Below, piece by piece: positions 42,774 to 56,178 of a DNA stretch of 64,000 nucleotides. Each line of letters opens with the position of its first letter. Within the stretch, counting starts at the first letter, position 1. Source of the stretch: Halorubrum aquaticum (lineage in GTDB: Archaea; Halobacteriota; Halobacteria; Halobacteriales; Haloferacaceae); contig NZ_FOPZ01000001.1 in the NCBI RefSeq assembly GCF_900113615.1, positions 310,001 to 374,000 of the forward strand. The letters are read 5' to 3'. Made by a program: the position numbers and the translations under genes. The notes under the pieces were generated by a model, which saw only the letters and a list, made by a program, of their open reading frames with translations, was not told the DNA's origin and did no database searches.

Positions 42774-43324
42774 GTCGATCGAAGGCGTTGGCACCGGGCC
42801 CGTGGACCTCGCCGTCCTCGTTCATCCCGTGACACGCCGGAATCGGTCGGCAGTCCGTAGGCGTTCGAGAGCGGTTCCGGAGCCGTCCACTCGAGCCTCA
42901 TCCACGATCGACTCGTCGGCTCGTCAGTGTCCGTCCACGGCAGCGAGCCGACGCTTGGTGCCGTGTTCGGTTCCGTCTCCCCCTCGAAAGCTCGCCACCC
43001 GTGAAACCATCAGTGCGCCTGTTCGACCGCTTGTAGCCGTCGATGATCCGAGCGAAGTTCGCCGGCGGCCGGATTCGGGCTCCGCCACGGCGACCACTCG
43101 AATCCCATCCAGTCGGCGGCGTAGTAGTCGGATTCGTTGAGCGTCGTCACGTAGTGAGGTTTTGTCCGGCGAGCCGTATTTAGTGTTGGCCGTCCCATCG
43201 ACAGTCTCGATCTGCTCACGGGCTTCCGTGTTTTCCGTTCGAACGTCGCCATCTGAATGGTCATGCCGTTCGCTTGACTCGACCAGAAGTATCAATTCAC
43301 AAGCCAGACACTGTCCTGAGAAAG
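42774..43324. other. Gene-poor junction at left edge of the accessory region
   Basis: About 550 bp with no convincing full gene. A minus-strand open frame at 43010-43264 (84 aa, with DYYAADWMGFEWSPWRSPNP) has plausible aromatic-rich protein texture and could be the tail of a lost gene, but it has no recognisable family. This is probably the left boundary of the accessory segment. I found no copy of the tRNA-Lys end here. Confidence 0.4.
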
Positions 43325-44137
43325 ATGGACGAAACGACCGCTCGGAAGCTGCTCTCAGAGATCGACGAACCGACGCAGCCGGCGCTACAAGAGCTACAGG
43401 AGACGGCTATCGACAGTGTTGAGACGGTCCTGTCGGACGCCGGCTTTCCGATTCGGGAAGAGGTCTGTCGCCGGCTCTCCTACACGTATTACTACGACTG
43501 GGAAACTGACGACCCGGACATCGTCCTCCTCGTACAGGATCCGGGAAACCTCCACGAACGCCACCTGTCGGAACTACGTCCTCACAACCCGCTTGCGGGC
43601 GAATGTTCTCCTCGCGAACAGATCGGCGTCTACCGCGAGTTCGGGAAGAGCTGGCTGACCGGGCGAAACGCCGATTTCACGGAGCGCTTTTTCGAGACGC
43701 TCGCTAGTCACGGACTCATCTCACTCCCGAACGGCTGGCATCACTACGTCGCGTCCGGAGACTTTTATCGAGACTTCTATCTCGGCGACGTCGTGAAGTA
43801 TCGCGTCGACGGATTCGGCACTGCTGCCGAGCGTGCCTCGTATCAGAGTTTGCTCGAACGTGAACTCCGAGCGTTGGACCCGGAACTAGTGATCACTTTC
43901 GGCGGCAACGCGTGGCCGGCGCTACGACGATCTACCACACCCGTACCCGTGGTAGATACGAATGCTGACCCCGACAGCATCATGTCCATTCACGGAACGC
44001 TCCACCAGATTTCCAAGCCGATCGACGCCCACGTACTTCCGTTAGCTCACATGAGTGGCCAAGTCTGGTGGCGGTTCCCTCCCGACGAGTACATTTCTCG
44101 ACTTAGTGAGGCTCTCGAAGTGTTCGAACGCCGGTAG
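43325..44137 (+). CDS. Uracil-DNA-glycosylase-superfamily-like protein
   Basis: 270 aa from the ATG at 43325. The fold markers are those of the UDG superfamily: motif 1-like DIVLLVQDPGNLHERH, a central PNGWHHY, LDPELVITFGGNAWPALR at the usual LxPkvivalG position, and motif 2-like LAHMSGQVWWRFPP, where UDGs have HPS and the DNA-intercalating loop. I do not recognise the exact subfamily, and the catalytic Asp/Asn is not certain. It has lower GC than neighbours and stands alone, consistent with horizontal gain, possibly a defence or repair cargo gene. Confidence 0.6.
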   Translation: MDETTARKLLSEIDEPTQPALQELQETAIDSVETVLSDAGFPIREEVCRRLSYTYYYDWETDDPDIVLLVQDPGNLHERHLSELRPHNPLAGECSPREQIGVYREFGKSWLTGRNADFTERFFETLASHGLISLPNGWHHYVASGDFYRDFYLGDVVKYRVDGFGTAAERASYQSLLERELRALDPELVITFGGNAWPALRRSTTPVPVVDTNADPDSIMSIHGTLHQISKPIDAHVLPLAHMSGQVWWRFPPDEYISRLSEALEVFERR

Positions 44138-44326
44138 CGAGAACTGACGGAGCGATTACCAACGCTGGGTCACACCGACACGAGCGACCACGCGCCGCCG
44201 CCGCGTGCCGTACGCACCGGGAGTGACCCCCCTATCTATACGTGTGCGTATCTGTCGTCGCCGCGATCGCGCCCCCGTCGAAAGACGTTCGAACCCGAGT
44301 CTGTTCGAAGGGCTGAGCGACGGAGT

Positions 44327-44662
44327 TCAGTTCCACTCATTCACGTTCACGACCGGCGGCAGATCAGTCGGCTCCGGTACCCACTCGATCACCTCCGCGA
44401 CGCAGTCGGCGATCGCGTAGGTATCCATCGTGTCATCGGCGTAGTAGAGGACCGGAACGTTCCCTCGTGTCTCCTTGTCGAGAAAATCAGTGTCGTGGGT
44501 GAGTACGAGGTAGCCACCCTCACGAGCGAACGTCGCGATCGAGTCGTCGTCGACTCCCTCGGAAAGTGCCTCATGGACGTGTTCGGCAGCGATCCCCTTC
44601 CCGCGGAGCGCCTCCGCGACTCGCGGACTCGTGTTCTCGTCGACGAGGACTCGGTACTCCAT
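44327..44662 (-). CDS. DUF5615 PIN-like toxin candidate
   Basis: 111 aa from the ATG at 44662. It has the PIN-like DUF5615 pattern: an early VLVDENTSPRVAEALR (acidic pair), DDDSIATFAREGGYLVLTHD and the adjacent TDFLDKETRG carrying the remaining acidic residues. Such proteins are predicted RNases. It starts 4 bp after the stop of the DUF433 partner, the standard layout of this toxin-antitoxin-like pair. Confidence 0.88.
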   Translation of the reverse strand: MEYRVLVDENTSPRVAEALRGKGIAAEHVHEALSEGVDDDSIATFAREGGYLVLTHDTDFLDKETRGNVPVLYYADDTMDTYAIADCVAEVIEWVPEPTDLPPVVNVNEWN

Positions 44663-44666
44663 CCGG

Positions 44667-44963
44667 TTACGCACTGTCGTCGTCTTTCAGTTCCGACAGC
44701 GACACCGCGCCCGCCTCCCGTGCCGCAGCCTCGCGTTCCGCCCGCCGGCGCTCGACCGCCGCCATCTCGTCGGGATGGCTGTGGTAGTACTGGAGCGCGC
44801 CGTACACGTCCGCCACGTCGAGCTCGAGCTGGTCGGCCACCTCCTCGGCTGACTTCCCGGCCCCCTCGACGAGCCCCTGAATCCGCCGGACGGTCACGCG
44901 CCGCCCCTCGATATGCGGCTCGTCGTGAACCTCGGTCACGATCCGAACCGACGACTGTGCCAT
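44667..44963 (-). CDS. DUF433 antitoxin candidate
   Basis: 98 aa from the ATG at 44963. The DUF433 domain is a short wHTH: EPHIEGRRVTVRRIQGLVEG, then KSAEEVADQLELDVADVYGA and LQYYHSHPDEM. A charged C-terminal tail (VERRRAEREAAAREAGAV) probably binds the partner DUF5615 protein and blocks it. This is VapBC-like pairing, by known association of the two families. Confidence 0.88.
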   Translation of the reverse strand: MAQSSVRIVTEVHDEPHIEGRRVTVRRIQGLVEGAGKSAEEVADQLELDVADVYGALQYYHSHPDEMAAVERRRAEREAAAREAGAVSLSELKDDDSA

Positions 44964-45155
44964 ACCCGCGAGTATCACCTGAGGCGGCATAAAACATCGC
45001 TCCACGGTTCTCCACCCGTTCCGATCAACCTCGGTCTGATCCGAGCCGATCGCGCACCTCACCCGATTCGAGCGCCCGCTCACCGCTCTGCCGCGTGATC
45101 ATCGAACCTCCGGGGAGCGATCTCACTTCCGATCAAAGACTCAAAAATCAAGTTT

Positions 45156-45238
45156 ATTGTCGTGTTTGTGAATGAGAATACATCGAATAAACACATTAAC
45201 CCCGTATTTTCAAGTTCGGTCGTGACAACGTGTAGTCG
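45156..45238 (+). promoter_or_regulatory. Duplicated upstream region, copy 1 (AbrB-like gene 1)
   Basis: From attgtcgtgtttgt at 45156 to the ATG is exactly 83 bp. The same motif lies exactly 83 bp before the second AbrB-like gene. Between them both copies keep a block of the type acccCGTgTcTTCAAGTT, whose TCAAGTT stretch is centred about 27 bp before the ATG and could be the TATA element. The whole control region was duplicated with the gene. Confidence 0.75.
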
Positions 45239-45496
45239 ATGTCGAGCGAGATTCGGAAGTTGCGAGATCTCGGCAACGGAAGCGGCGGGGTCACCATCCC
45301 TCGCGACACGCTCCGGAACTGGGGTCTCATCGATGACGACGACGAGTTGACCGACGCACACCTCCACATCCACGAGTCCGACGACGCCATCGAGGTCAGG
45401 CCGATCGGTCCGACTCCTGGAGGTTCCGACGACGACTCCTCGAAACCGAAGCGATCGACCGGCCGCTCGATCCCCGCCTCGAAGGCCGACCTGTAG
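45239..45496 (+). CDS. AbrB/SpoVT-like DNA-binding protein, copy 1
   Basis: 85 aa. The N-terminus is a swapped-hairpin AbrB fold (SSEIRKLRDLGNGSGGVTIP, RDTLRNWGLIDDDDELT). A variable acidic linker is followed by the invariant tail KRSTGRSIPASKADL. AbrB-like proteins dimerise and bind DNA, often as antitoxins or regulators. No toxin gene is adjacent, so it may be an orphan regulator. It is tandemly duplicated with the next gene. Confidence 0.82.
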   Translation: MSSEIRKLRDLGNGSGGVTIPRDTLRNWGLIDDDDELTDAHLHIHESDDAIEVRPIGPTPGGSDDDSSKPKRSTGRSIPASKADL

Positions 45497-45565
45497 CGAG
45501 CACGCCTCCCCTTTTACGACTGGTTGAACCCGTATTACCGATCGCACGACCAGAAAATCACTGCT

Positions 45566-45648
45566 ATTGTCGTGTTTGTTCGCCTGAATAGGTCTAAAAA
45601 GTACATTTACCCCGTGTCTTCAAGTTATACCGTGACGACGTGTACACG
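45566..45648 (+). promoter_or_regulatory. Duplicated upstream region, copy 2 (AbrB-like gene 2)
   Basis: The motif attgtcgtgtttgt recurs at 45566, 83 bp before the ATG at 45649, as in copy 1 (offset 410 bp). Conservation is best in the last 45 bp, including the TCAAGTT stretch and CGTGACgACGTGTA directly before the start codon. The part between is more diverged. Confidence 0.75.
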
Positions 45649-45903
45649 ATGCCCGGAGAGATCCGAAAGCTGAACGATCAGGGAAACGGAAGCGGCAGCA
45701 TCGTCATCCCGAAAGACGCCCTCCGCGAGTGGGGATTGGTCGACGAGGACGATGGCAGCGTGATGAGCGCGCACCTACACGTTACCACCTCAGACGACGG
45801 CGTCGTCATGCTCCAGCCGCTCGGCGAGATGGATCCCACGAACGACTCGCCGTCGAAGCGATCGACCGGCCGCTCGATTCCCGCCTCGAAGGCCGATCTG
45901 TAG
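45649..45903 (+). CDS. AbrB/SpoVT-like DNA-binding protein, copy 2
   Basis: 84 aa from the ATG at 45649, chosen by alignment with copy 1; an in-frame GTG three codons earlier is possible. The fold is the same (GEIRKLNDQGNGSGSIVIPK, ALREWGLVDEDDGSVM). The middle differs (DGVVMLQPLGEMDP) but the tail KRSTGRSIPASKADL is identical to copy 1. That pattern suggests the tail is the functional interaction surface. Confidence 0.82.
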   Translation: MPGEIRKLNDQGNGSGSIVIPKDALREWGLVDEDDGSVMSAHLHVTTSDDGVVMLQPLGEMDPTNDSPSKRSTGRSIPASKADL

Positions 45904-46298
45904 TTCCGCTCGTTTTCTCTCGTCGATCCGTTCGCTGACCGGTCACCCGAACTGTCCTCGACATCGAGTAGTTCGCTCGCTTCAGCCGATCGACGAGCGA
46001 GCTCGTCGTCGTCACCGTTTCACGGTGGTTCGTAACGTGAGGGGGTCCCCCCCTATGATTTCACTTCCCCACCCGCGCGTGCGTAAGCGTCACGACCGCG
46101 AGAGAGATCGGCATCTTGAGCGAGCGGTCGTCAGATTCCGAAAAACGGCCTTGTTGAAATCCTCGCCCGGTGGTAGGTTTCTGCGGGCGTGCTGAATACA
46201 GAGCGCATAATCAGCACAGAATAAGCTACAAATAGAACAGGTAGAATCGGTCAGTATAGAGCTTATAGTCACATGATTCAGGAGTAGCAAAGCTCAAC
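45904..46298. other. Gene-free stretch between AbrB pair and RNase HI remnant
   Basis: About 395 bp without a convincing gene. It holds a C-rich/TATA-like block near 46045-46085 (loosely like blocks at 48494 and 48649), and a segment near 46150-46230 whose tail (gctgaatacagagcgcat) looks like non-coding or insertion-sequence-derived DNA. I cannot identify a terminal inverted repeat or a transposase. Confidence 0.4.
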
Positions 46299-46660
46299 GA
46301 TGGCGCTCGTCCGAATCCCATCCTGTAGCTGTCGAGTACATTATAGAGACTGACGGCTGAACCGGAGGGGGTAGCGAACACTTCGGGGAATCAGCCAACA
46401 ACCGAATCCAGTGCCACTCCCTCATCCGAGGGTTAGAGGTCGTGTCGGAGCAGGGGATGTTCCGGGGTTGAAGCGAGAGGTGACTCCGAGATAATTGTGA
46501 AGCAAGTTCGTGGTGAGTATGAAGTGAAACAGCCAGAACTCCGTCCACTACGTGACCGCGTACAAGAGTTGACGAGTTCGAGCAATTCGAGATACAGCAC
46601 ATTCCGTGAGAGGAGAACTGGGAGTCAGACGAGCTGGTTGACCGAGCCTTCGACGACTGA
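46299..46660 (+). pseudogene. Decayed archaeal RNase HI (RVT_3-type) gene
   Basis: Joining fragments across three frames gives an RNase HI: DGARPNP (46299-46319), then PVAVEYIIETDG, SEHFGESANNRIQCHSLIRG and LEVVSEQGM (46322 on), then VEARGDSEIIVKQVRGEYEV and KQPELRPLRDRVQEL (from about 46467), then EQFEIQHIP, stop, EENWESDELVDRAFDD (46580-46660). The family signatures DG..NPG, TNN.AEY..LI.GLE, GDSELVVKQ..G.Y and H..REEN..AD.L are all there in order. The gene has in-frame TGA at 46358 and 46607 and at least three frameshifts (near 46320, 46470 and 46575), so it is dead. Confidence 0.85.
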
Positions 46661-46718
46661 GTGGGACTAACTTCGAGATCGGTGCTATCTGGGAATATCT
46701 CCGTGAAGTGGATACTAA

Positions 46719-47111
46719 TTATTCCAATTTTTTTGATAGAATCCTTGATATTTTTATATCGTCACCTTCCTCTTCTACTAATTGCCTAGAAGTAAGAACT
46801 CTCATTATCCAATTGATTTTATGTGTGGGTATTTCAGAACCGGGTGGTTCTGATTGTATTTCTTCCTTTGTTACTGGGCCATTGTCAATAATGTACGATA
46901 GAACATTAATGTATTTTGGTTTATCCTCTTCGTATGACGTAGGAATTTCGTCTGAATAAAATATTTGTTTGTTTTCTTCCGGTAAATCTTTGATATCCTC
47001 TTCTGAGAGTCCTAGTATTGGAACAAATTCATCTTCGTCAGTATTTGTCGCTTCTTTTATTTCCTTTTCGAATGTATTGAATATTTCGGTGAGACGTTCC
47101 TTGTCTGGCAT
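46719..47111 (-). CDS. AT-rich orphan protein with possible C-terminal winged helix
   Basis: 130 aa from the ATG at 47111. It has a normal-looking acidic protein sequence, but the DNA is strikingly AT-rich against the GC-rich surroundings and uses A/T third positions throughout. The N-terminal half is helical (MPDKERLTEIFNTFEKEIKE); the C-terminal half (INVLSYIIDNGPVTKEEIQS, KINWIMRVLTSRQLVEEEGD) looks like a winged helix. I do not recognise a family. The base use marks it as acquired from a low-GC source, for example a haloarchaeal virus or plasmid. Confidence 0.65.
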   Translation of the reverse strand: MPDKERLTEIFNTFEKEIKEATNTDEDEFVPILGLSEEDIKDLPEENKQIFYSDEIPTSYEEDKPKYINVLSYIIDNGPVTKEEIQSEPPGSEIPTHKINWIMRVLTSRQLVEEEGDDIKISRILSKKLE

Positions 47112-47632
47112 AAACAGAAATAGTTAGAGATAACACAAGTACTTACCGAAAAATAACAACTAGGTTAGATGATTTCGTCCTAATTACTGTTCTATAGCGC
47201 CCGGTTGTCATAGGATTATATGGAGGGATTGAACGAGTGATGCCGTATCTGGGAAACACCCCGTGTACCTCAGTTGATGACCGACGAGACAGCACGGTTG
47301 TGTTGGATATCAAAACTTTCGAACTCTCTCACGCTACGTAACTTTCGCCGAAGGTGTCGCTGGTGGTTCGACAGACTTTCAGTATGGTCATCTCCCATAC
47401 GTGACTCCATCAGAGGAGTGTCCCTCGTCCCACTTCTGACGCATCTGGTCAAAGGCTCGGAAGCAGTCATCCATCAACTGCTGAATATACTCTCTGTATC
47501 TCGCACACCGATTCTATCACTGGTTGAGGATTTCAATAGAATCAAAAATCCACTTCCAGTCTCGACAAACGCTTCACAACGAGTGAATCGTCGGTTCGCG
47601 GCTCGCGAGCAATTCGAACGGCCGAACTGCGA
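47112..47632. other. Gene-free stretch upstream of AT-rich orphan
   Basis: About 520 bp of intermediate GC with no convincing complete gene. On the minus strand around 47400-47510 a stop-free run reads like protein (REYIQQLMDDCFRAFDQMRQ, KWDEGHSSDGVTYGR) and may be a remnant of a lost gene; it has no start and I cannot name it. Confidence 0.4.
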
Positions 47633-48052
47633 CTACGCAGATCCATCGCGGAATCGATCGATCGGCACGTCGGCGATCTCGTCGTAGTCGTCGTCACCAC
47701 CGACCAGAAGCGTCCCCTCGACGTGGTCGGCGGTCGCCAGCGCGAACGAGTCGCCGAGTGCCGGGTTGTACCCGAGAATGTACTCCGACGCCTCTAGCCA
47801 TGCGTCGGCGACATCTACCGGCTCGATGCCGAGGTCGATCAGCCAGTCGAGATACTCGTCGGCCGTGTCGCGGTCGTACTTCCGAGCGAGCGTGTACCGC
47901 ACTTCGGTGAAGTTCACGTAGCTCGCGTAGCCGGTGGTGTCCTCGACGGCGACCGCGTCGAGATACTCCTCGACGACCTCGCTGCCAGGTTCGTTGTCGG
48001 CGTGCGCTATCAGCGGCTCGGCGTCGAAAACGACACAGTCAGGCAGCGTCAT
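47633..48052 (-). CDS. PIN-domain toxin (VapC-like)
   Basis: 139 aa from the ATG at 48052. PIN-domain acidic residues are in place: CVVFDAEPLIAHAD (first Asp), a central YASYVNFTEVRYTLARKY (Glu), LGDSFALATADH (two Asp) and LLVGGDDDYDEIAD at the end. VapC toxins cut RNA. The start ATG overlaps the antitoxin stop (ATGA), so the pair is translationally coupled. Confidence 0.92.
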   Translation of the reverse strand: MTLPDCVVFDAEPLIAHADNEPGSEVVEEYLDAVAVEDTTGYASYVNFTEVRYTLARKYDRDTADEYLDWLIDLGIEPVDVADAWLEASEYILGYNPALGDSFALATADHVEGTLLVGGDDDYDEIADVPIDRFRDGSA

Positions 48053-48354
48053 CACTCCTCCGTCGAGAACTCCGCCTCGCGCTCTTCGCGGTCCTGCTCG
48101 CGCTTCTCGTTGAGGATCTCGGTCGCCGACCGGTCCGTGCTCGCCTCGCTTCGGGCGGCAAACCCGCGCATCTCGCTCGGCGAACGGACGTGTTCGACGA
48201 TCACCTCTCCGTCCTCGGTCTCCCGAAACACCACCTTTCCGGGGGCCTCGATCCCGAGTTTCTCGCGGAACCGCTTCGGGATAGTCGCCTGACCGTGCTT
48301 GGTGACGGCGACGATCTCTTTTTCAGAGTCGTTTGTATTCTCTGTCTTACTCAT
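48052..48354 (-). CDS. AbrB-family antitoxin (VapB-like)
   Basis: 100 aa. The AbrB/MazE swapped-hairpin is in the middle (VAVTKHGQATIPKRFREKLG, PGKVVFRETEDGEVIVEHVR) and the charged C-terminus (SATEILNEKREQDREEREAE) would wrap the PIN toxin. Encoded immediately upstream of it and coupled by a 4-base overlap. Such pairs stabilise plasmids and islands. Confidence 0.92.
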   Translation of the reverse strand: MSKTENTNDSEKEIVAVTKHGQATIPKRFREKLGIEAPGKVVFRETEDGEVIVEHVRSPSEMRGFAARSEASTDRSATEILNEKREQDREEREAEFSTEE

Positions 48355-48493: not shown

Positions 48494-48528
48494 ACCCCCT
48501 CCCCCTCACTTCCCATTATATACGCGCG
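48494..48528. repeat. C-tract/TATATACGCGCG repeat, copy 1
   Basis: The block accccctccccctc is followed by acttcccattatatacgcgcg. It shares with copy 2 the two C-rich runs and TTATATACGCGCG with about the same spacing. The two copies are 155 bp apart. The TATATA core suggests a promoter-like or protein-binding site. Confidence 0.7.
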
Positions 48529-48648
48529 GGCGTGGGTCAGATTCTCGGCAGGCAGCAGAGACGCCGAACCGGCCCATCTCGAAACGACGAATATCGTGAT
48601 CCGGAGAGATCTCGAGGTGACCCTCGATCACGTTCGATCGCACGGCTC

Positions 48649-48687
48649 ACCCCCCTCCCCCTCCCCTTCTCTTATATACGCGCGCGC
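48649..48687. repeat. C-tract/TATATACGCGCG repeat, copy 2
   Basis: acccccctccccctcccc is followed by ttctcttatatacgcgcg and more CG repeats. The alternating purine-pyrimidine run TATATACGCGCGCG could flip to left-handed DNA under supercoiling in high salt; that is inference. Confidence 0.7.
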
Positions 48688-48784
48688 AGGGGGTTCGCTG
48701 AGAGCGGCCGCGCGAGGTTCGGTACCGACCGATCTTAGAATCCGATATCTCGGAAAATAGCGAATGGCCGGACACCGACCCAGG

Positions 48785-49396
48785 TCAGACGCGGTCGATG
48801 TGGTCGTAGACGCGTTCTGTCGTTTGGATGCTCGCGTGTCTGAGCCGGTTCCGCACGTCGTAGAACGAGTTCCCCTCCTCGACGTTGAGCATCCGATACG
48901 CGACGCTGTGCCGCAGCGTGTGCGGCGTCACGTCCGCCGGGTCTCCTCGGCCGGTGAGCGTCAGCGGACGCACGTCGGCCGCGACAGCCGCGTCTCGCAC
49001 GACGTTCCGAACCGACTCGGTCGACATCCGGTCGGCCTGCCGCGACGGCCAGAGCGCCGCAGTGTCCTTCCACCGGCTCGCGAGGTACATTCGGAGCGTT
49101 CGCACCGTCTCGTCGGCGAGCTCGATCTCGGTGTAGCTCGGCGACCGATCGGTCGGGTAGTCCTTCTGGAGGTCCGCCGGCAACGCGATCACCCCGTCGT
49201 CGAGGTCTAGGTGGTCGTCGACGTCGAGCGCGATCGCCTCGCTGACGCGAAGCCCCGTGTCGTACAGCGTCGCGATCAGTGCGTCGTTGCGAGCCGCGAG
49301 GTACGTCGCGCTCACTTCCACGGTCGCGCTTCGCATCTCGTCGACCTGGTCCGGCTTCAGCCAGACGGTCGCTTTCTCCTGAGTTTGGGTTTCCAT
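48785..49396 (-). CDS. Short tyrosine site-specific recombinase/integrase
   Basis: 203 aa, essentially only the catalytic domain. Catalytic residues: Arg50 (LYDTGLRVSEA), His159 and Arg162 (PHTLRHSVA), His187 (RLRHASIQTTERVY) and the nucleophile Tyr197; Lys78 (LQKDYPTDR) is the likely fifth. There is no N-terminal SAM-like core-binding domain, as in some haloarchaeal pleolipovirus and plasmid recombinases. It is likely to have integrated the neighbouring element. Its first codons (METQTQ) lie within a repeat that recurs 72 bp upstream, so it may autoregulate. Confidence 0.92.
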   Translation of the reverse strand: METQTQEKATVWLKPDQVDEMRSATVEVSATYLAARNDALIATLYDTGLRVSEAIALDVDDHLDLDDGVIALPADLQKDYPTDRSPSYTEIELADETVRTLRMYLASRWKDTAALWPSRQADRMSTESVRNVVRDAAVAADVRPLTLTGRGDPADVTPHTLRHSVAYRMLNVEEGNSFYDVRNRLRHASIQTTERVYDHIDRV

Positions 49397-49647: not shown

Positions 49648-49929
49648 TCACTCGCCATCGTACACCTCCGGCTCGAGACGCTCTCGTGTGTCGCACAGTC
49701 GCTGCCAGACGGCTACTGCGATCTCTGCTCCACGGAAGAGTCCGTACATCAATCCCGCCGCTACGAGGTAGAACGTCGCGATGAACGGATACACCACAAG
49801 TAGCGGTGTGAGCCGAACCCGGCCGTAGGCCGTCCGCTGCCGCCACTCGCTCCACAAGTGCGCAACATCACAGCGTACGCCGTCCACGATAGCGAAGAAC
49901 GCCTCCGGGAGCTCCTCACTCGTCGCCAT
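49648..49929 (-). CDS. Small membrane protein of the integrated element
   Basis: 93 aa with a hydrophobic stretch at about 41-70 (LTPLLVVYPFIATFYLVAAG), probably one long or two short transmembrane segments, and soluble ends. Its start overlaps the end of the Topo VIA-like gene by 14 bp. I do not recognise a family. It is the last gene of the long element operon. Confidence 0.65.
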   Translation of the reverse strand: MATSEELPEAFFAIVDGVRCDVAHLWSEWRQRTAYGRVRLTPLLVVYPFIATFYLVAAGLMYGLFRGAEIAVAVWQRLCDTRERLEPEVYDGE

Positions 49930-50938
49930 CGGTCACCTCCAGAGCATCTCGGTCGATCTCGATACACTCGGCGAGTTGCTCTCGGCGATCGCGGATTCGG
50001 TTCTCGACCTCGTGTTTCTTCTCCAGGTCGACGTGCTCCTCGATCGCGTCGCGGACGAGGTCCTCGAGGAACTCCCGTTCGAACTCTTTCAGCGCGTTCA
50101 GTTCGACGTTGGTGTCGCGGCCGTCCGAAACGTACCGACGGAACGACCGCTTGATCGTCGCGTCCTTGTCCGAGGACGATGGTACCGGATTCTCGGGGAG
50201 TTCGAACCGCTCGATGTGCTCGGTGTTCAGTGCTTTCCGCTCGAGCGCGAAAGTACCGTTACCGCCTTCGAACCAGAACGGAGCCCCGTATTCGGCGTCG
50301 TAGTAACGCGGGTCGTCGGATCCCGGGAACTCCCGACCGAGGTCGATGCCGTAGTACCCCATCGCGTCGAGGATGCTGACAGGGGCGTGGAACCCGGACG
50401 GATTGTAGTCGCCGAAGTAGAGGATCCGGACATCCTTTCCATCGCTGATCTTCTCGATGAGTCGGTTACTCGCTTGGTAGACCTTGGAATCCGACCAATC
50501 TCCGCGAGTTGCCTCCAGCCGGACGTTGAACTCCTCACAGACGGGCGCGAAGACGGACGCGAGGCTTTGCTTCTCGAGCCAGACCTCGACGTACGACTCC
50601 TGCTCGCGCCAGAAGTCCTCCCAGTAGTCGTTCCACACCTTGTCGACCCGGTCGTCGACGAAGTGTTTGGGATCGCGCCAGCCCGTCGCCGAGACGTTCT
50701 CCGCCGTCCGCGAGGCGTCGACGATCTGTGCGGGGTCGATGTAGCCCGCTCGGCGTCCCTTCTTGACCGCCCGCTTCACATAGCGGTACTCCCACTTGTG
50801 ACCGCGAGATTCGAGCGCGTAATAGACGTCGCGAACGGTGCGCTCCTCGCCCGAGGACAGCACGTCCTGTATCTGCGAGAGGATAGCCTGATTCTTCCTG
50901 CCGGGGTTCCACTCGCCCTTCGTCGTCTCACTCGCCAT
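49916..50938 (-). CDS. Topo VIA/Spo11-like Mini-A protein with altered Toprim motif
   Basis: 340 aa from the ATG at 50938; an ATG one codon earlier is equally good. The N-terminal winged helix carries VRDVYY (35-40), the position of the catalytic Tyr in Topo VIA/Spo11. A Toprim domain follows: Glu122 in EVWLEKQSL and the acidic motif FGDYNPSG (175-182), where Asp-x-Asp-Pro has become Asp-x-Asn-Pro. Free-standing Topo VIA homologues without a B subunit, called Mini-A, have been described in mobile elements of haloarchaea and others. No ATPase B subunit is present here. It probably breaks or binds DNA during element replication or segregation. Confidence 0.82.
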   Translation of the reverse strand: MASETTKGEWNPGRKNQAILSQIQDVLSSGEERTVRDVYYALESRGHKWEYRYVKRAVKKGRRAGYIDPAQIVDASRTAENVSATGWRDPKHFVDDRVDKVWNDYWEDFWREQESYVEVWLEKQSLASVFAPVCEEFNVRLEATRGDWSDSKVYQASNRLIEKISDGKDVRILYFGDYNPSGFHAPVSILDAMGYYGIDLGREFPGSDDPRYYDAEYGAPFWFEGGNGTFALERKALNTEHIERFELPENPVPSSSDKDATIKRSFRRYVSDGRDTNVELNALKEFEREFLEDLVRDAIEEHVDLEKKHEVENRIRDRREQLAECIEIDRDALEVTDGDE

Positions 50939-51224
50939 CATCTCCCCCCGTGGCGGCGATTCCAACGCCGAACTGTTTCTGGAGGTAGGACTCCAACGGG
51001 AGCGTCCGACCCTCCCAGTAGTAGTAATGCGACTCACCGATGAATTCGGTCTCCTTGAGTTTCGACGGGTCCCTAGGAGCGTCGGTCTCGATGTCGAACA
51101 CTTCGATCGCCTTCGCGAAGCCTGCCGCGTAGGACTTTTCGAGACCCTCCCACACCTCGTCGGTTTTCTCCTCGTACGCTTCGAACCGATCGGTCTCGCC
51201 TCCGGATCGATCACTCGACATCAT
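50928..51224 (-). CDS. Element hypothetical protein upstream of Mini-A
   Basis: 98 aa from the ATG at 51224 (a second ATG follows at once). It is acidic, with an aromatic-rich centre (ESHYYYWEGRTLPLESYLQK). No family is recognised. Its end overlaps the Mini-A start and its start lies inside the zinc-ribbon gene's end, so it is embedded in the operon and likely cotranslated. Confidence 0.65.
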   Translation of the reverse strand: MMSSDRSGGETDRFEAYEEKTDEVWEGLEKSYAAGFAKAIEVFDIETDAPRDPSKLKETEFIGESHYYYWEGRTLPLESYLQKQFGVGIAATGGDDGE

Positions 51225-51936: not shown

Positions 51937-52458
51937 TCAGACTTCGATCGGCTCTCCGTCGCATTCCCGTCTCGCGCACTCCAGACACCGCTCACCGGCG
52001 AATCCGGGCGATGTCGCGAGCAGCTCCGCGACATCACCGCAGCCGTCACAGATGTCCTCGTCGGAGATTCCGGCCGCCCGGCGTTCCCGTTCTCGTTTCT
52101 CGTCTTCGGCCCACGCTCGGACCTCTTGCTGCGTGATCGACGCGTGGCGAGCATGTTCCACCGGCTCGAGGTTCTCTCCCCGGTTGTCCCACTTGATCCC
52201 GTTGCGGTGATGGACATCCTTCTCCGAGAGATCGTCGAGGACCGACTCAATCGGTTCCTCGAGCGGGTAGCACTCGACGATCGCGAGCAGCCGGTGGTGT
52301 GCGACGTAGACGTCTTCGCGTCGCTCTCCCGGCGTGTGCGGTCGGTATTCGGTCGATCGCCAGCGCTCGTAGCCTGCTCCGCTCCCGTGCCCCGGCTTCG
52401 CGTGTTCGAACCGAGCGTACCGCTGTACGCGGTTCGAACCGTAATGATAGCTCGGCAC
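51937..52458 (-). CDS. HNH endonuclease with C-terminal zinc ribbon
   Basis: 173 aa. The HNH core is DVHHRNGIKWDNRGENLEPV (about 90-112) preceded by VYVAHHRLLAIVE; the His-His and Asn-Asn pattern matches the HNH_3 group often carried by phages. A C-terminal CDGCGDVAELL ... CLECARREC adds a zinc ribbon. It begins 7 bp after the PCNA-like gene. It could be a homing-type nuclease or a structural element nuclease. Confidence 0.88.
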   Translation of the reverse strand: MPSYHYGSNRVQRYARFEHAKPGHGSGAGYERWRSTEYRPHTPGERREDVYVAHHRLLAIVECYPLEEPIESVLDDLSEKDVHHRNGIKWDNRGENLEPVEHARHASITQQEVRAWAEDEKRERERRAAGISDEDICDGCGDVAELLATSPGFAGERCLECARRECDGEPIEV

Positions 52459-52465
52459 ACCGTCA

Positions 52466-53320
52466 TCACTTCCTCTGGATCCGCGGAGCGAGCATCATCA
52501 TCACGTGACCGAGATCGTCCGCGAAGTCGTAGTAGATCTTCACGGGCATCTCCTCGGAGAACTCCACTCGAAGCTCTGTGCCGCTCTTCAGCGGCTTCAG
52601 GATTCCCGCGTACTTGCTGCCGCTCGTCGAGCCGCCGACCAGGTACGGAAGCGAGTACATTCCTACTGCGTCCGCGTCGAACGTCGCGTTCGGCAGTTCG
52701 TCCGCTCCGAGAACCGTCTGAATCTCGTCGGTATCTCCGTGGCCGCGAACGGCCAACGCCTCCTCGTCGACCATCGATTCGAACTTGACATGGTCGCTGA
52801 CGAGTTCCGCATTCTCCACTGCGTCAGTGATCACACCCGCATCGGCTGTGAACTCCACCGAGTGATCGATATCCGGGATATCGGGTTCGTCACGGATCGT
52901 CTTCGGGTCGATCCCCGACATCTCGACTTCGACGTTCGTGTGATCGATCTCGATCGACCGCGTCTCGGGTCGGTACGTGAACGTTACCGGGTCATCCCCG
53001 CTTGCGCTGCCGATGTAGTCGTCGAGCCGCTGGAGATTCAGCCCGATCGGGAACATCCCGTCACCCACTGATTCGAACGCACCAGGTTCGACCTCAACGT
53101 CGACCATGCCGACGTTCGCGGGATCGACGGCTGCGACCGACAGCCCCTCGTAACCGATCCGGAAGATCGCCTCGTCGACGACCGTCAGCAGTTGGTCGAC
53201 CACCTGCTGGAGCACTTCCGCGCGGATAACGACCGTCAGACTGTCGACTGCTTCCGTTTCCGTTCCTGCGGTCGCCGCGTCGCCGTCTCCAACCGCGTCT
53301 TCAGCGTCAGCGGCCGCCAT
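52466..53320 (-). CDS. PCNA-like sliding clamp encoded by the element
   Basis: 284 aa. After a 25-residue acidic extension comes a complete clamp: VVIRAEVLQQVVDQLLTVVD, DEAIFRIGYEGLSVAAVDPAN (the conserved DPANV turn), GDGMFPIGLNLQRLDDYIGS, the interdomain stretch, and a C-terminal strand GHVMMMLAPRIQRK. A chromosomal PCNA must exist elsewhere, so this is a second, element-borne clamp. PCNA genes occur in several haloarchaeal tailed viruses and plasmids. It would recruit the host replicative polymerase to the element. Confidence 0.92.
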   Translation of the reverse strand: MAAADAEDAVGDGDAATAGTETEAVDSLTVVIRAEVLQQVVDQLLTVVDEAIFRIGYEGLSVAAVDPANVGMVDVEVEPGAFESVGDGMFPIGLNLQRLDDYIGSASGDDPVTFTYRPETRSIEIDHTNVEVEMSGIDPKTIRDEPDIPDIDHSVEFTADAGVITDAVENAELVSDHVKFESMVDEEALAVRGHGDTDEIQTVLGADELPNATFDADAVGMYSLPYLVGGSTSGSKYAGILKPLKSGTELRVEFSEEMPVKIYYDFADDLGHVMMMLAPRIQRK

Positions 53321-53625: not shown

Positions 53626-54130
53626 CGGCCACCTCCATCCCGGCCGCCGCCAGCTCGTCGAGTCGCTCGCGTGCCTCGCCGCCGTCAGCGACGGCTTCTT
53701 TCGACGCCGAGGGTTCGACCGGACTTTCCGTCTCGGTCGGTTCGTCGTCGTTCTTTCCGACGACGATCGAGACGTGGTGGATCCCTTGGTGGAGCGCGAT
53801 CACGTCCTCGCGCTTCAGCGGCTGGATCACCACTTTCCGAACCGCCTCCTTCTGGATGTTCAGATGGTTTGCGAGAATCGACTCGGCCGTTCCGAGTTCG
53901 ATCCGGCCGCCGACTCCGGTCCACTCAACGAGCTTTCGATGGCCTTCCTCCGCCTTCACCGGCAGGCCGCTGTCGTAGACTGTCTCGACATCGTCGTCTC
54001 CGGCGTACGTCGTCGCGACCGCGTGCCGCAGTGCGTCGGCCAGCGACCCGTGTTCTTCTTCGGCCTCCTCGAGAGCGGCGAGAAGCCCCTCGTCACGGAT
54101 CGTCGCCTTCGCGACTCGTGACTCACTCAT
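53612..54130 (-). CDS. Element hypothetical protein with acidic tail
   Basis: 172 aa. The first 110 residues look folded (ATIRDEGLLAALEEAEEEHG; LVEWTGVGGRIELGTAESIL; KEAVRKVVIQPLKREDVIAL), possibly with an HTH-like segment. The rest is acidic linker and helix. It overlaps both neighbours by 8 to 14 bp. Function unknown. Confidence 0.65.
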   Translation of the reverse strand: MSESRVAKATIRDEGLLAALEEAEEEHGSLADALRHAVATTYAGDDDVETVYDSGLPVKAEEGHRKLVEWTGVGGRIELGTAESILANHLNIQKEAVRKVVIQPLKREDVIALHQGIHHVSIVVGKNDDEPTETESPVEPSASKEAVADGGEARERLDELAAAGMEVADGDE

Positions 54131-54719
54131 TGAGCATCACCTCCTCCGCCTCAATGACTTCTTGAAACGCCTTCCGGCTCCCTCCGTTGTCCGGGTGATT
54201 CTTCGCTTTCAGCGACCGTGCGGCCGCTTTCACCACTGTATCCGGCGCGTCCGGAGAGACATCGAGCACTTCGTGAGCCGGCGTTGCCGAACTACTCTCT
54301 GCGACGACATCACCATCGCTCGCGTCGCCCGGCGGAAGTCGTGCTGCGGCGAATTCGGAGTCGCCCGTTCGAACCGGACGGGTCCCCCGCATCCGGGTCT
54401 CATGGACCCACTTGTAGACGGTCCGGACGTTGTCTCGAAGCCGTGGCGACGCGTCGCAGGCCACCGCGAACGACTCGCCGTCGTCAGTCCATCGAAGGAC
54501 GAATCCCGGATCGTCCGGGTTCGCGTTGTGGAGCGGCAGTCCGTTCGACTTCGTGTGAGCGTTCGCGATGGACGCCCGCCAGTTCTCGACGTCCATCCGT
54601 CCCATCTCCGTCGAGAGGTCCTGCGTCGTGGTCGCGAGCGACGCCTCGAAGCTCCGGTTCGGCTCGCGCTCCGCTTCCGGTGTCCGCTCGAAGCCCGCCG
54701 GCCACTCGAAACGGCTCAT
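54123..54719 (-). CDS. Element protein with C-terminal J-domain
   Basis: 198 aa. The last 50 residues are a J-domain with an HPD tripeptide (SLKAKNHPDNGGSRKAFQEV), the signature that stimulates Hsp70 ATPase. The N-terminal 130 residues are not a known J-protein partner domain. Viral J-proteins (for example polyoma T antigen) recruit host Hsp70 to remodel replication complexes; a similar role here is inference. It overlaps the tiny zinc-ribbon gene upstream by 4 bp. Confidence 0.82.
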   Translation of the reverse strand: MSRFEWPAGFERTPEAEREPNRSFEASLATTTQDLSTEMGRMDVENWRASIANAHTKSNGLPLHNANPDDPGFVLRWTDDGESFAVACDASPRLRDNVRTVYKWVHETRMRGTRPVRTGDSEFAAARLPPGDASDGDVVAESSSATPAHEVLDVSPDAPDTVVKAAARSLKAKNHPDNGGSRKAFQEVIEAEEVMLNE

Positions 54720-56031: not shown

Positions 56032-56105
56032 GACGCCACCTCCGAGTGACCTCCGGATCGACCGAAAAATACATCTAGGAGGCCTCTATCCTTTATTAAC
56101 GGAAC

Positions 56106-56178
56106 GGGCCGGGCGCGATTTGAACACGCGACCGACGGATTAAGAGTCCGTCGCTCTCCCTAACTGAGCTACCGGCCC
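56106..56178 (-). tRNA. tRNA-Lys (anticodon CUU)
   Basis: 73 nt folding into a complete cloverleaf: acceptor GGGCCGG pairs with CCGGCCC, D-loop GCTC...GAGC, anticodon stem ACGGA/TCCGT holding CTCTTAA (anticodon CTT), T-arm GCGTG-TTCAAAT-CGCGC. There is no CCA encoded. Its 3' end faces the element, the usual polarity for tRNA-targeted integration. It is the boundary between accessory DNA and chromosome. Confidence 0.97.

Follow-up and report, generated by a model that had tools for sequence, protein, structure and literature searches.

Asparagine replaces the second aspartate of the DxD motif in a haloarchaeal clade of Mini-A topoisomerase homologues

Introduction

Mini-A proteins (Takahashi et al. 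2020, NAR Genom Bioinform lqz021; described here after PMC8185306, PMC7614492 and PMC8084294) are small proteins resembling subunit A of topoisomerase VI (Top6A), which lack a B subunit and occur in viruses and plasmids. Papers given by PMC number are cited from excerpts throughout. The window analyzed here, a stretch of 64,000 nucleotides from Halorubrum aquaticum, encodes such a protein on its minus strand, with the sequence DxN in place of the acidic DxD motif of the Toprim domain. An earlier note on this DNA proposed that the asparagine could weaken metal binding, or change the chemistry from strand passage to nicking or binding only. The question is whether the asparagine marks a disabled enzyme or one that would still cut DNA.

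Results

The gene and its protein family

The frame 49916-50938 (-) is intact, starts with ATG and codes for 340 amino acids. Residues 35-40 read VRDVYY, residues 120-125 WLEKQS and residues 175-182 FGDYNPSG, giving the motif set R36-x3-Y40, Toprim Glu122 and D177-Y-N179-P-S-G. The tyrosine context and the Toprim glutamate described in the earlier note were both found (Y40 and Glu122), and its residue numbers (Tyr39/Tyr40, Asp177) are correct. Tyr40 (codon 50819-50821, minus strand as for all codons given here), the second tyrosine of the pair, is the presumed nucleophile and aligns with Tyr106 of Top6A in the numbering of PMC13040014. Glu122 (50573-50575) is the first Toprim acid and corresponds to E202 of Top6A. 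In sequence alignments, Asp177-Tyr178-Asn179 (50402-50410) takes the place of D254-x-D256.

The proposed Mini-A-like identity was supported by database matches. PHROG 6247 ('DNA topoisomerase') matched residues 15-338 with an E value of 6.1e-93. A tblastn search of phage records yielded 76 with a match. Among these, gp35 of the halovirus HCIV-1 (YP_009272855.1) was 57.8% identical with 96% of the query covered; apart from HCIV-1, identities were about 31% or less among the matches listed. Plasmid records with a match numbered 22, and two among the 20 listed carry the annotation 'Topo Mini-A'; the plasmid record LC711082, annotated in this way, was 25% identical across 81% of the query. For the alignment, 19 of the 76 phage records and 4 of the 22 plasmid records were fetched. 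The PHROG match, the identity to gp35 and the low dN/dS reported below rule out a chance reading frame. The Pfam profile TP6A_N, a mark of Topo VI subunit A, scored 17.6 bits, under its cut-off of 26. NCBIfam gave no match. A PDB search with a profile of 21 members had the Topo VI A subunit of M. jannaschii as its sole, weak match (E 0.094), in which GDxDPSG of the profile was paired with TDGDPYG.

An AlphaFold2 model was calculated from 65 sequences and reached a pLDDT of 82.9 and a pTM of 0.80. The predicted Toprim order is strand 115-121 followed by Glu122, strand 140-143, and strand 169-175 followed by Asp177. Using the model as Foldseek query, Topo VI A (9o7o, E 5.2e-4, probability 1.00) was the only match at E <= 0.001. 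In VIA-align, the top six were Topo VI A entries with Z 9.4-10.8, 214-233 aligned residues and rmsd 4.1-5.5; 1d3y gave Z 10.8 (rmsd 5.5, 222 aligned) and 9o0g Z 10.4 (rmsd 4.1, 233 aligned). Spo11 reached Z 8.3 with 8urq (rmsd 4.8, 205 aligned) and Z 7.7 with a second entry (200 aligned), and the small Toprim protein 2fcj Z 8.8 (107 aligned). The C. glutamicum nuclease 8b7f, aligned in its Toprim part only (Z 9.3, rmsd 2.9, 126 aligned), is on a par with several of the Topo VI A entries, which counts against the reading that we prefer below.

Taken by architecture, the protein is a short A-type protein with winged helix and Toprim and with no GHKL or B part. It is homologous over its full length to Mini-A and PHROG 6247 and shares with them the winged helix with YY, the R-x3-Y tyrosine (R36/Y40), the Toprim Glu (E122), the first Asp of DxD (D177) and the PSG motif. 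Carriage by a mobile element or virus is indicated by an integrase gene, a tRNA-Lys gene, the absence of the island from one congener, and relatives in HCIV-1 and in IMG/VR contigs. The second Asp of DxD is replaced by Asn179. Among the literature excerpts, no source was found that makes this Asp part of the definition of Mini-A; therefore, we file the protein as Mini-A, as a variant. By its predicted fold and by its site, it belongs to the Mini-A kind.

No B subunit accompanies the gene, as the earlier note had stated. A tblastn search of the window with the host's Top6B gave a best E value of 0.26, and a B part was found neither adjacent nor fused. The host's ordinary Topo VI A gene lies on contig C11 (TP6A_N, 62.5 bits), and the open frame beside it was recognized by eye as what we take to be Top6B. 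With Topo VI subunits encoded elsewhere in the host genome, the protein could in principle borrow Top6B and form an alternative Topo VI holoenzyme. We consider this improbable. In contrast to Topo VI subunit A, which has a full N-terminal region, a Top6B partner and DxD, the protein is missing the N-terminal part; the aligned stretch begins between Top6A residues 41 and 75 according to which structure is compared. Moreover, tblastn of phage records found relatives in many bacterial phages.

Distribution of Asn179

An alignment-based scan for relatives found at least 534, of which 79 loci were kept. Because one of the two scan patterns demands D or N at position 179, rarer residues could be missed. 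Viral contigs scanned with a single protein gave no relative, whereas alignment-based scans found them. The final alignment has 109 rows. It omits L039, L042 and L043 (from contigs already represented by HCIV-1 or L038), L050 and L087 (match figures equal to L049 and L086, sequences not compared), one exact duplicate and the window's own copy L003. E122 and D177 were present in 109 of 109 rows and, gaps aside, Y40 in 106 of 107. The rows with Asn179 number 10 and are made up of four Halorubrum copies including that of the window, the Halolamina copy, HCIV-1 and four IMG/VR contigs. The remaining 99 (97 Mini-A, the host Top6A and the divergent L026) all have Asp. The asparagine therefore differs from Topo VIA, as the earlier note had pointed out, and also from 97 of 97 other Mini-A rows. 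The alignment of the family, which that note had proposed as a check, gave a divided answer: the haloarchaeal clade normally has Asn, and elsewhere in the family Asp is the rule. In the literature excerpts on Mini-A, no demonstrated cleavage by a Mini-A was found. DxN in a Mini-A was found nowhere in these or in the excerpts on DxN with Toprim, and the original Mini-A description may already note it.

The window protein is 91-92% identical to the copies of Halorubrum sp. Boch-26, H. cibi and H. lipolyticum and 57% identical to that of Halolamina salifodinae. HCIV-1 gp35 has the same DxN and the same GDWSDS loop, and in contrast to the window copy it sits in a sphaerolipovirus genome. A profile of the clade matched in 5 of 391 Halobacteria genomes, and a broader profile in 23 of 391; of the 28 matches listed for the latter, 8 have no locus and stand outside the comparison. 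In the viral-contig copy L038, an in-frame stop occurs close to the C terminus, past the motifs discussed here.

In a first tree, which further omits L096, L106 and L109 (N terminus unmatched), the DxN rows formed one group with a support of 100/100, the bootstrap being not fully settled. A second tree of 50 chosen rows (9 DxN, 12 of 15 longer haloarchaeal relatives, 29 others) grouped the 9 DxN rows again with 100/100. The stem of the clade is long, with 3.89 changes per column in the first tree and 1.65 in the second. We compared the 10 clade rows with the 97 other Mini-A rows, leaving aside the host Top6A and L026, both with Asp. At 21 positions, the clade is fixed and at least 80% of the others have another state. 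These are 18 substitutions, including D179N, D281N, K253P, Y147D and D184H, and three inserted residues. Position 253 is Lys in 97 of 97 non-clade rows and Pro in the clade, position 281 is Asp in 96 of 97, and the GDWSDS loop is GYxS in most others. R36, Y40, E122, D177 and E279 are retained in 10 of 10 clade members.

Such a pattern would also fit a cleavage-deficient derivative, which keeps the dimeric DNA-bending fold for binding or architecture, or for competing with host Topo VI, and which has lost cleavage or nicks only. DxN, joined by 17 further substitutions (K253P and D281N among them) and three inserted residues at otherwise uniform positions, and the long stem in both trees argue for it; a changed function of the clade is indeed possible on these grounds. 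Nevertheless, we judge a cleavage-deficient derivative to be rather unlikely, as all clade members retain these five residues.

A further group of longer haloarchaeal Mini-A relatives was compared (15 loci, L142-L156; 12 with open frames of 490-612 amino acids, three shorter). In the 50-row tree, the 12 included form a separate group. Mostly these proteins have RGxHY, together with the Toprim Glu and DxD; one of them, when scanned, gave no Pfam match and matched PHROG 6247 at E 6.9e-24. Position 179 is Asp in 15 of 15, position 147 is Asp or Glu in 14 of 15 (one unclear) and position 281 is Asn in 12 of 15. Asn179 therefore looks like a derived trait of one haloarchaeal clade and not a general feature of halophiles, and an adaptation of the motif to halophilic life was rejected. 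Since the longer relatives combine DxD with Asn at 281, D281N is no sign of a dead site, and this takes away part of the case for lost cleavage.

Selection on the gene

Pairwise dN/dS of Mini-A among the four Halorubrum copies was 0.068-0.114, indicating strong purifying selection. For comparison, the PCNA-like gene of the same element gave 0.216-0.345, the HNH gene 0.088-0.209 and the integrase 0.055-0.107 (three copies). Thus, the Mini-A values are lower than those of PCNA, mostly lower than those of HNH and similar to those of the integrase. The PCNA-like clamp of the element evolves faster than its Mini-A. The codon of Asn179 varies between AAT and AAC, and the codons of Asp147, Glu122 and His184 likewise show synonymous changes only. 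A pseudogene or a sequencing error is unlikely in view of the copies in four genomes, the low dN/dS and the AAT/AAC variation. The low dN/dS fits a protein whose exact sequence matters, whether it cuts or not.

The metal site

The window protein can be read directly against M. mazei Top6A: Y40 aligns with Y106, R36 with R102, E122 with E202, D177 with D254 and N179 with D256 (residues named in PMC13040014). E279 is probably the counterpart of the clasp partner E342, judging from the offset that the fold alignment shows at its end. In Spo11, the catalytic site A is attributed to E233 and D288, while D290 together with D288 holds a metal at site B (PMC11746154). E233 and D288 are essential and D290 is dispensable; D290N has little effect on recombination and D290 to Ala a partial one (PMC11746154). 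In spo11-D290A, breaks were reduced by none to about 50%, varying with assay and background (PMC3728922), which counts against the cleavage-competent reading preferred below. For mouse SPO11, E224/D277 are assigned to site A and D277/D279 to site B, and its dimers cut DNA in vitro without partners or a B subunit (PMC11922746). Plant SPO11-2 always has DxN, as do some protist proteins, and some algae have the DxN form only (PMC11302465).

In the alignment, the essential residues of Spo11 correspond to E122 and D177, and the dispensable one would correspond to Asn179. The near-neutral D290N and the natural DxN of SPO11-2 argue by analogy against lost cleavage, whereas the poor DNA binding of a topo I mutated at the second Asp of DxD (PMC11302465) is in favor of it. 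By the same analogy, the DxN swap probably does not disable the enzyme. The loss or change of chemistry suggested by the earlier note is thus not supported, the Asn being fixed in 10 of 10 clade members and the gene under purifying selection in the four Halorubrum copies. The cleavage by SPO11 dimers that have no B partner speaks against it as well.

Alternatively, the metal site could be re-tooled, with Asp147 (50498-50500) replacing the acid lost at 179 and two metals bound in a new geometry. The 10 of 109 rows with N179 are also the only ones with D147, and a loop after strand 2, as predicted by the model, should face the active-site side of the Toprim sheet. However, the longer relatives carry a loop acid with DxD intact, so that the changes at 147 and 179 are not tied to each other. 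In addition, D147 aligns with loop 227-229 of M. mazei Top6A, which enters the minor groove (PMC13040014) and is not a metal ligand. D147 as a substitute acid was therefore rejected, and we hold a re-tooled site to be very improbable.

The element and its island

The genes around Mini-A, all on the minus strand, suggest an integrated element. A small neighbor of 93 amino acids with a probable membrane segment, seen by eye, lies at 49648-49929. At 50928-51224, an upstream neighbor overlaps the Mini-A start and had no match in the loci compared. Domain scans and locus comparison identified an integrase, a tyrosine recombinase catalytic domain of 203 amino acids (48785-49396), and a PCNA-like sliding clamp (52466-53320); an HNH endonuclease-like protein (51937-52458) was found by Pfam/PHROG-type scans and locus comparison. 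A DnaJ-domain protein (54123-54719) scored 25.6 bits, short of the 27.8 bits that Pfam sets as cut-off. In 4 of 4 Halorubrum, Mini-A is accompanied by the PCNA-like and HNH genes and two unnamed genes. The integrase and the small neighbor are present in the window, L121 and L123, and the DnaJ-like gene was detected in the window and L123.

A tRNA-Lys (CTT) gene, found by tRNA search and congener comparison, adjoins the island at 56105-56178. tRNA-Lys adjoins the window and Boch-26 copies and tRNA-Pro the H. lipolyticum copy; at the H. cibi locus no tRNA was found. In congener G105, the gene whose end lies near 42.77 kb in the window comes within about 400 bases after tRNA-Lys, and therefore roughly 42.8-56.1 kb is an island, in which the Mini-A element takes up the tRNA-side part. 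Congener G116 has tRNA-side parts of the element, with no Mini-A match listed in the broader profile search. The rest of the island (43274-48354) contains a UDG-superfamily gene, a DUF433/DUF5615 pair and a MazE-like/PIN pair, with a low-GC stretch at 46-48 kb. Two adjacent small plus-strand frames at 45239-45903 end alike (RSTGRSIPASKADL), apparently by tandem duplication. Just past the integrase stop, at about 48500-48700, two similar CT-rich stretches are each followed by TATATACGCGCG, possibly the end of the element. No exact repeat of the tRNA stretch of at least 12 bases was found near the integrase end, and no convincing shorter one. A scan for promoters and terminators stayed at chance level.

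A PCNA-like clamp recurs near haloarchaeal Mini-A genes (window, L121-L123, L035, L037, L002). Of the six other clade members, three have the match (DNA around L035 and L037, and inside VP1 of HCIV-1); none was found in the DNA around L036, L038 and L124. We also considered an HCIV-1-type provirus. Of the 47 HCIV-1 proteins, 26 were searched against the window (tblastn, E 1e-4) and matched only Mini-A and the PCNA-like VP1 segment. No HCIV-1-type capsid gene was found with these 26 queries, and the provirus was rejected.

Discussion

We favor, with a probability of about 0.6, that the protein is a cleavage-competent, B-less type IIB homodimer, which has kept the essential metal site A (E122, D177) and in which the structural site B is weakened. 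A DNA gate would be made of two subunits, each supplying Tyr40 to an active site whose Glu122 and Asp177 come from its partner; attack of the tyrosine on a strand would leave 5'-phosphotyrosyl ends. Metal ion A, held by E122 and D177, would serve catalysis, and Asn179 would weaken or remove the mainly structural metal ion B. With site B weakened, cleavage should be kept, maybe slower, more dependent on ion type or salt, or easier to reverse. As there is no ATPase subunit, the homodimer would probably cut, reseal or relax bent or supercoiled element DNA and not perform ATP-driven strand passage. Replication, integration/excision or resolution of the element may provide the occasion.

Topo VI subunit A of M. 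mazei and M. jannaschii provides the best solved fold matches. Spo11 is eukaryotic and meiotic, unlike the window protein, and shares with it B-free cleavage as a possibility and, in SPO11-2, a natural DxN. The DxN of the Mini-A clade may have arisen separately from that of SPO11-2. More tentatively, the clade may be a natural type IIB cleavage module with one catalytic metal, a disabled site B and no B subunit, and so, in minimal and virus-borne form, a convergent counterpart of plant SPO11-2. This remains doubtful; such a module may serve a dedicated step on element DNA, for example making tyrosine-linked ends for replication or resolution.

The clade-wide Asn at the second DxD position sets apart a haloarchaeal branch within a viral family already known. 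The need for a second metal in cleavage by type II topoisomerases and Spo11 has been argued mainly from mutants. Here, nature supplies a test case in a small protein, a clade with a fixed Asn at a metal ligand and with no B subunit. If its DxN is independent of that in plant and protist SPO11-2, the same relaxation of the site would have evolved at least twice.
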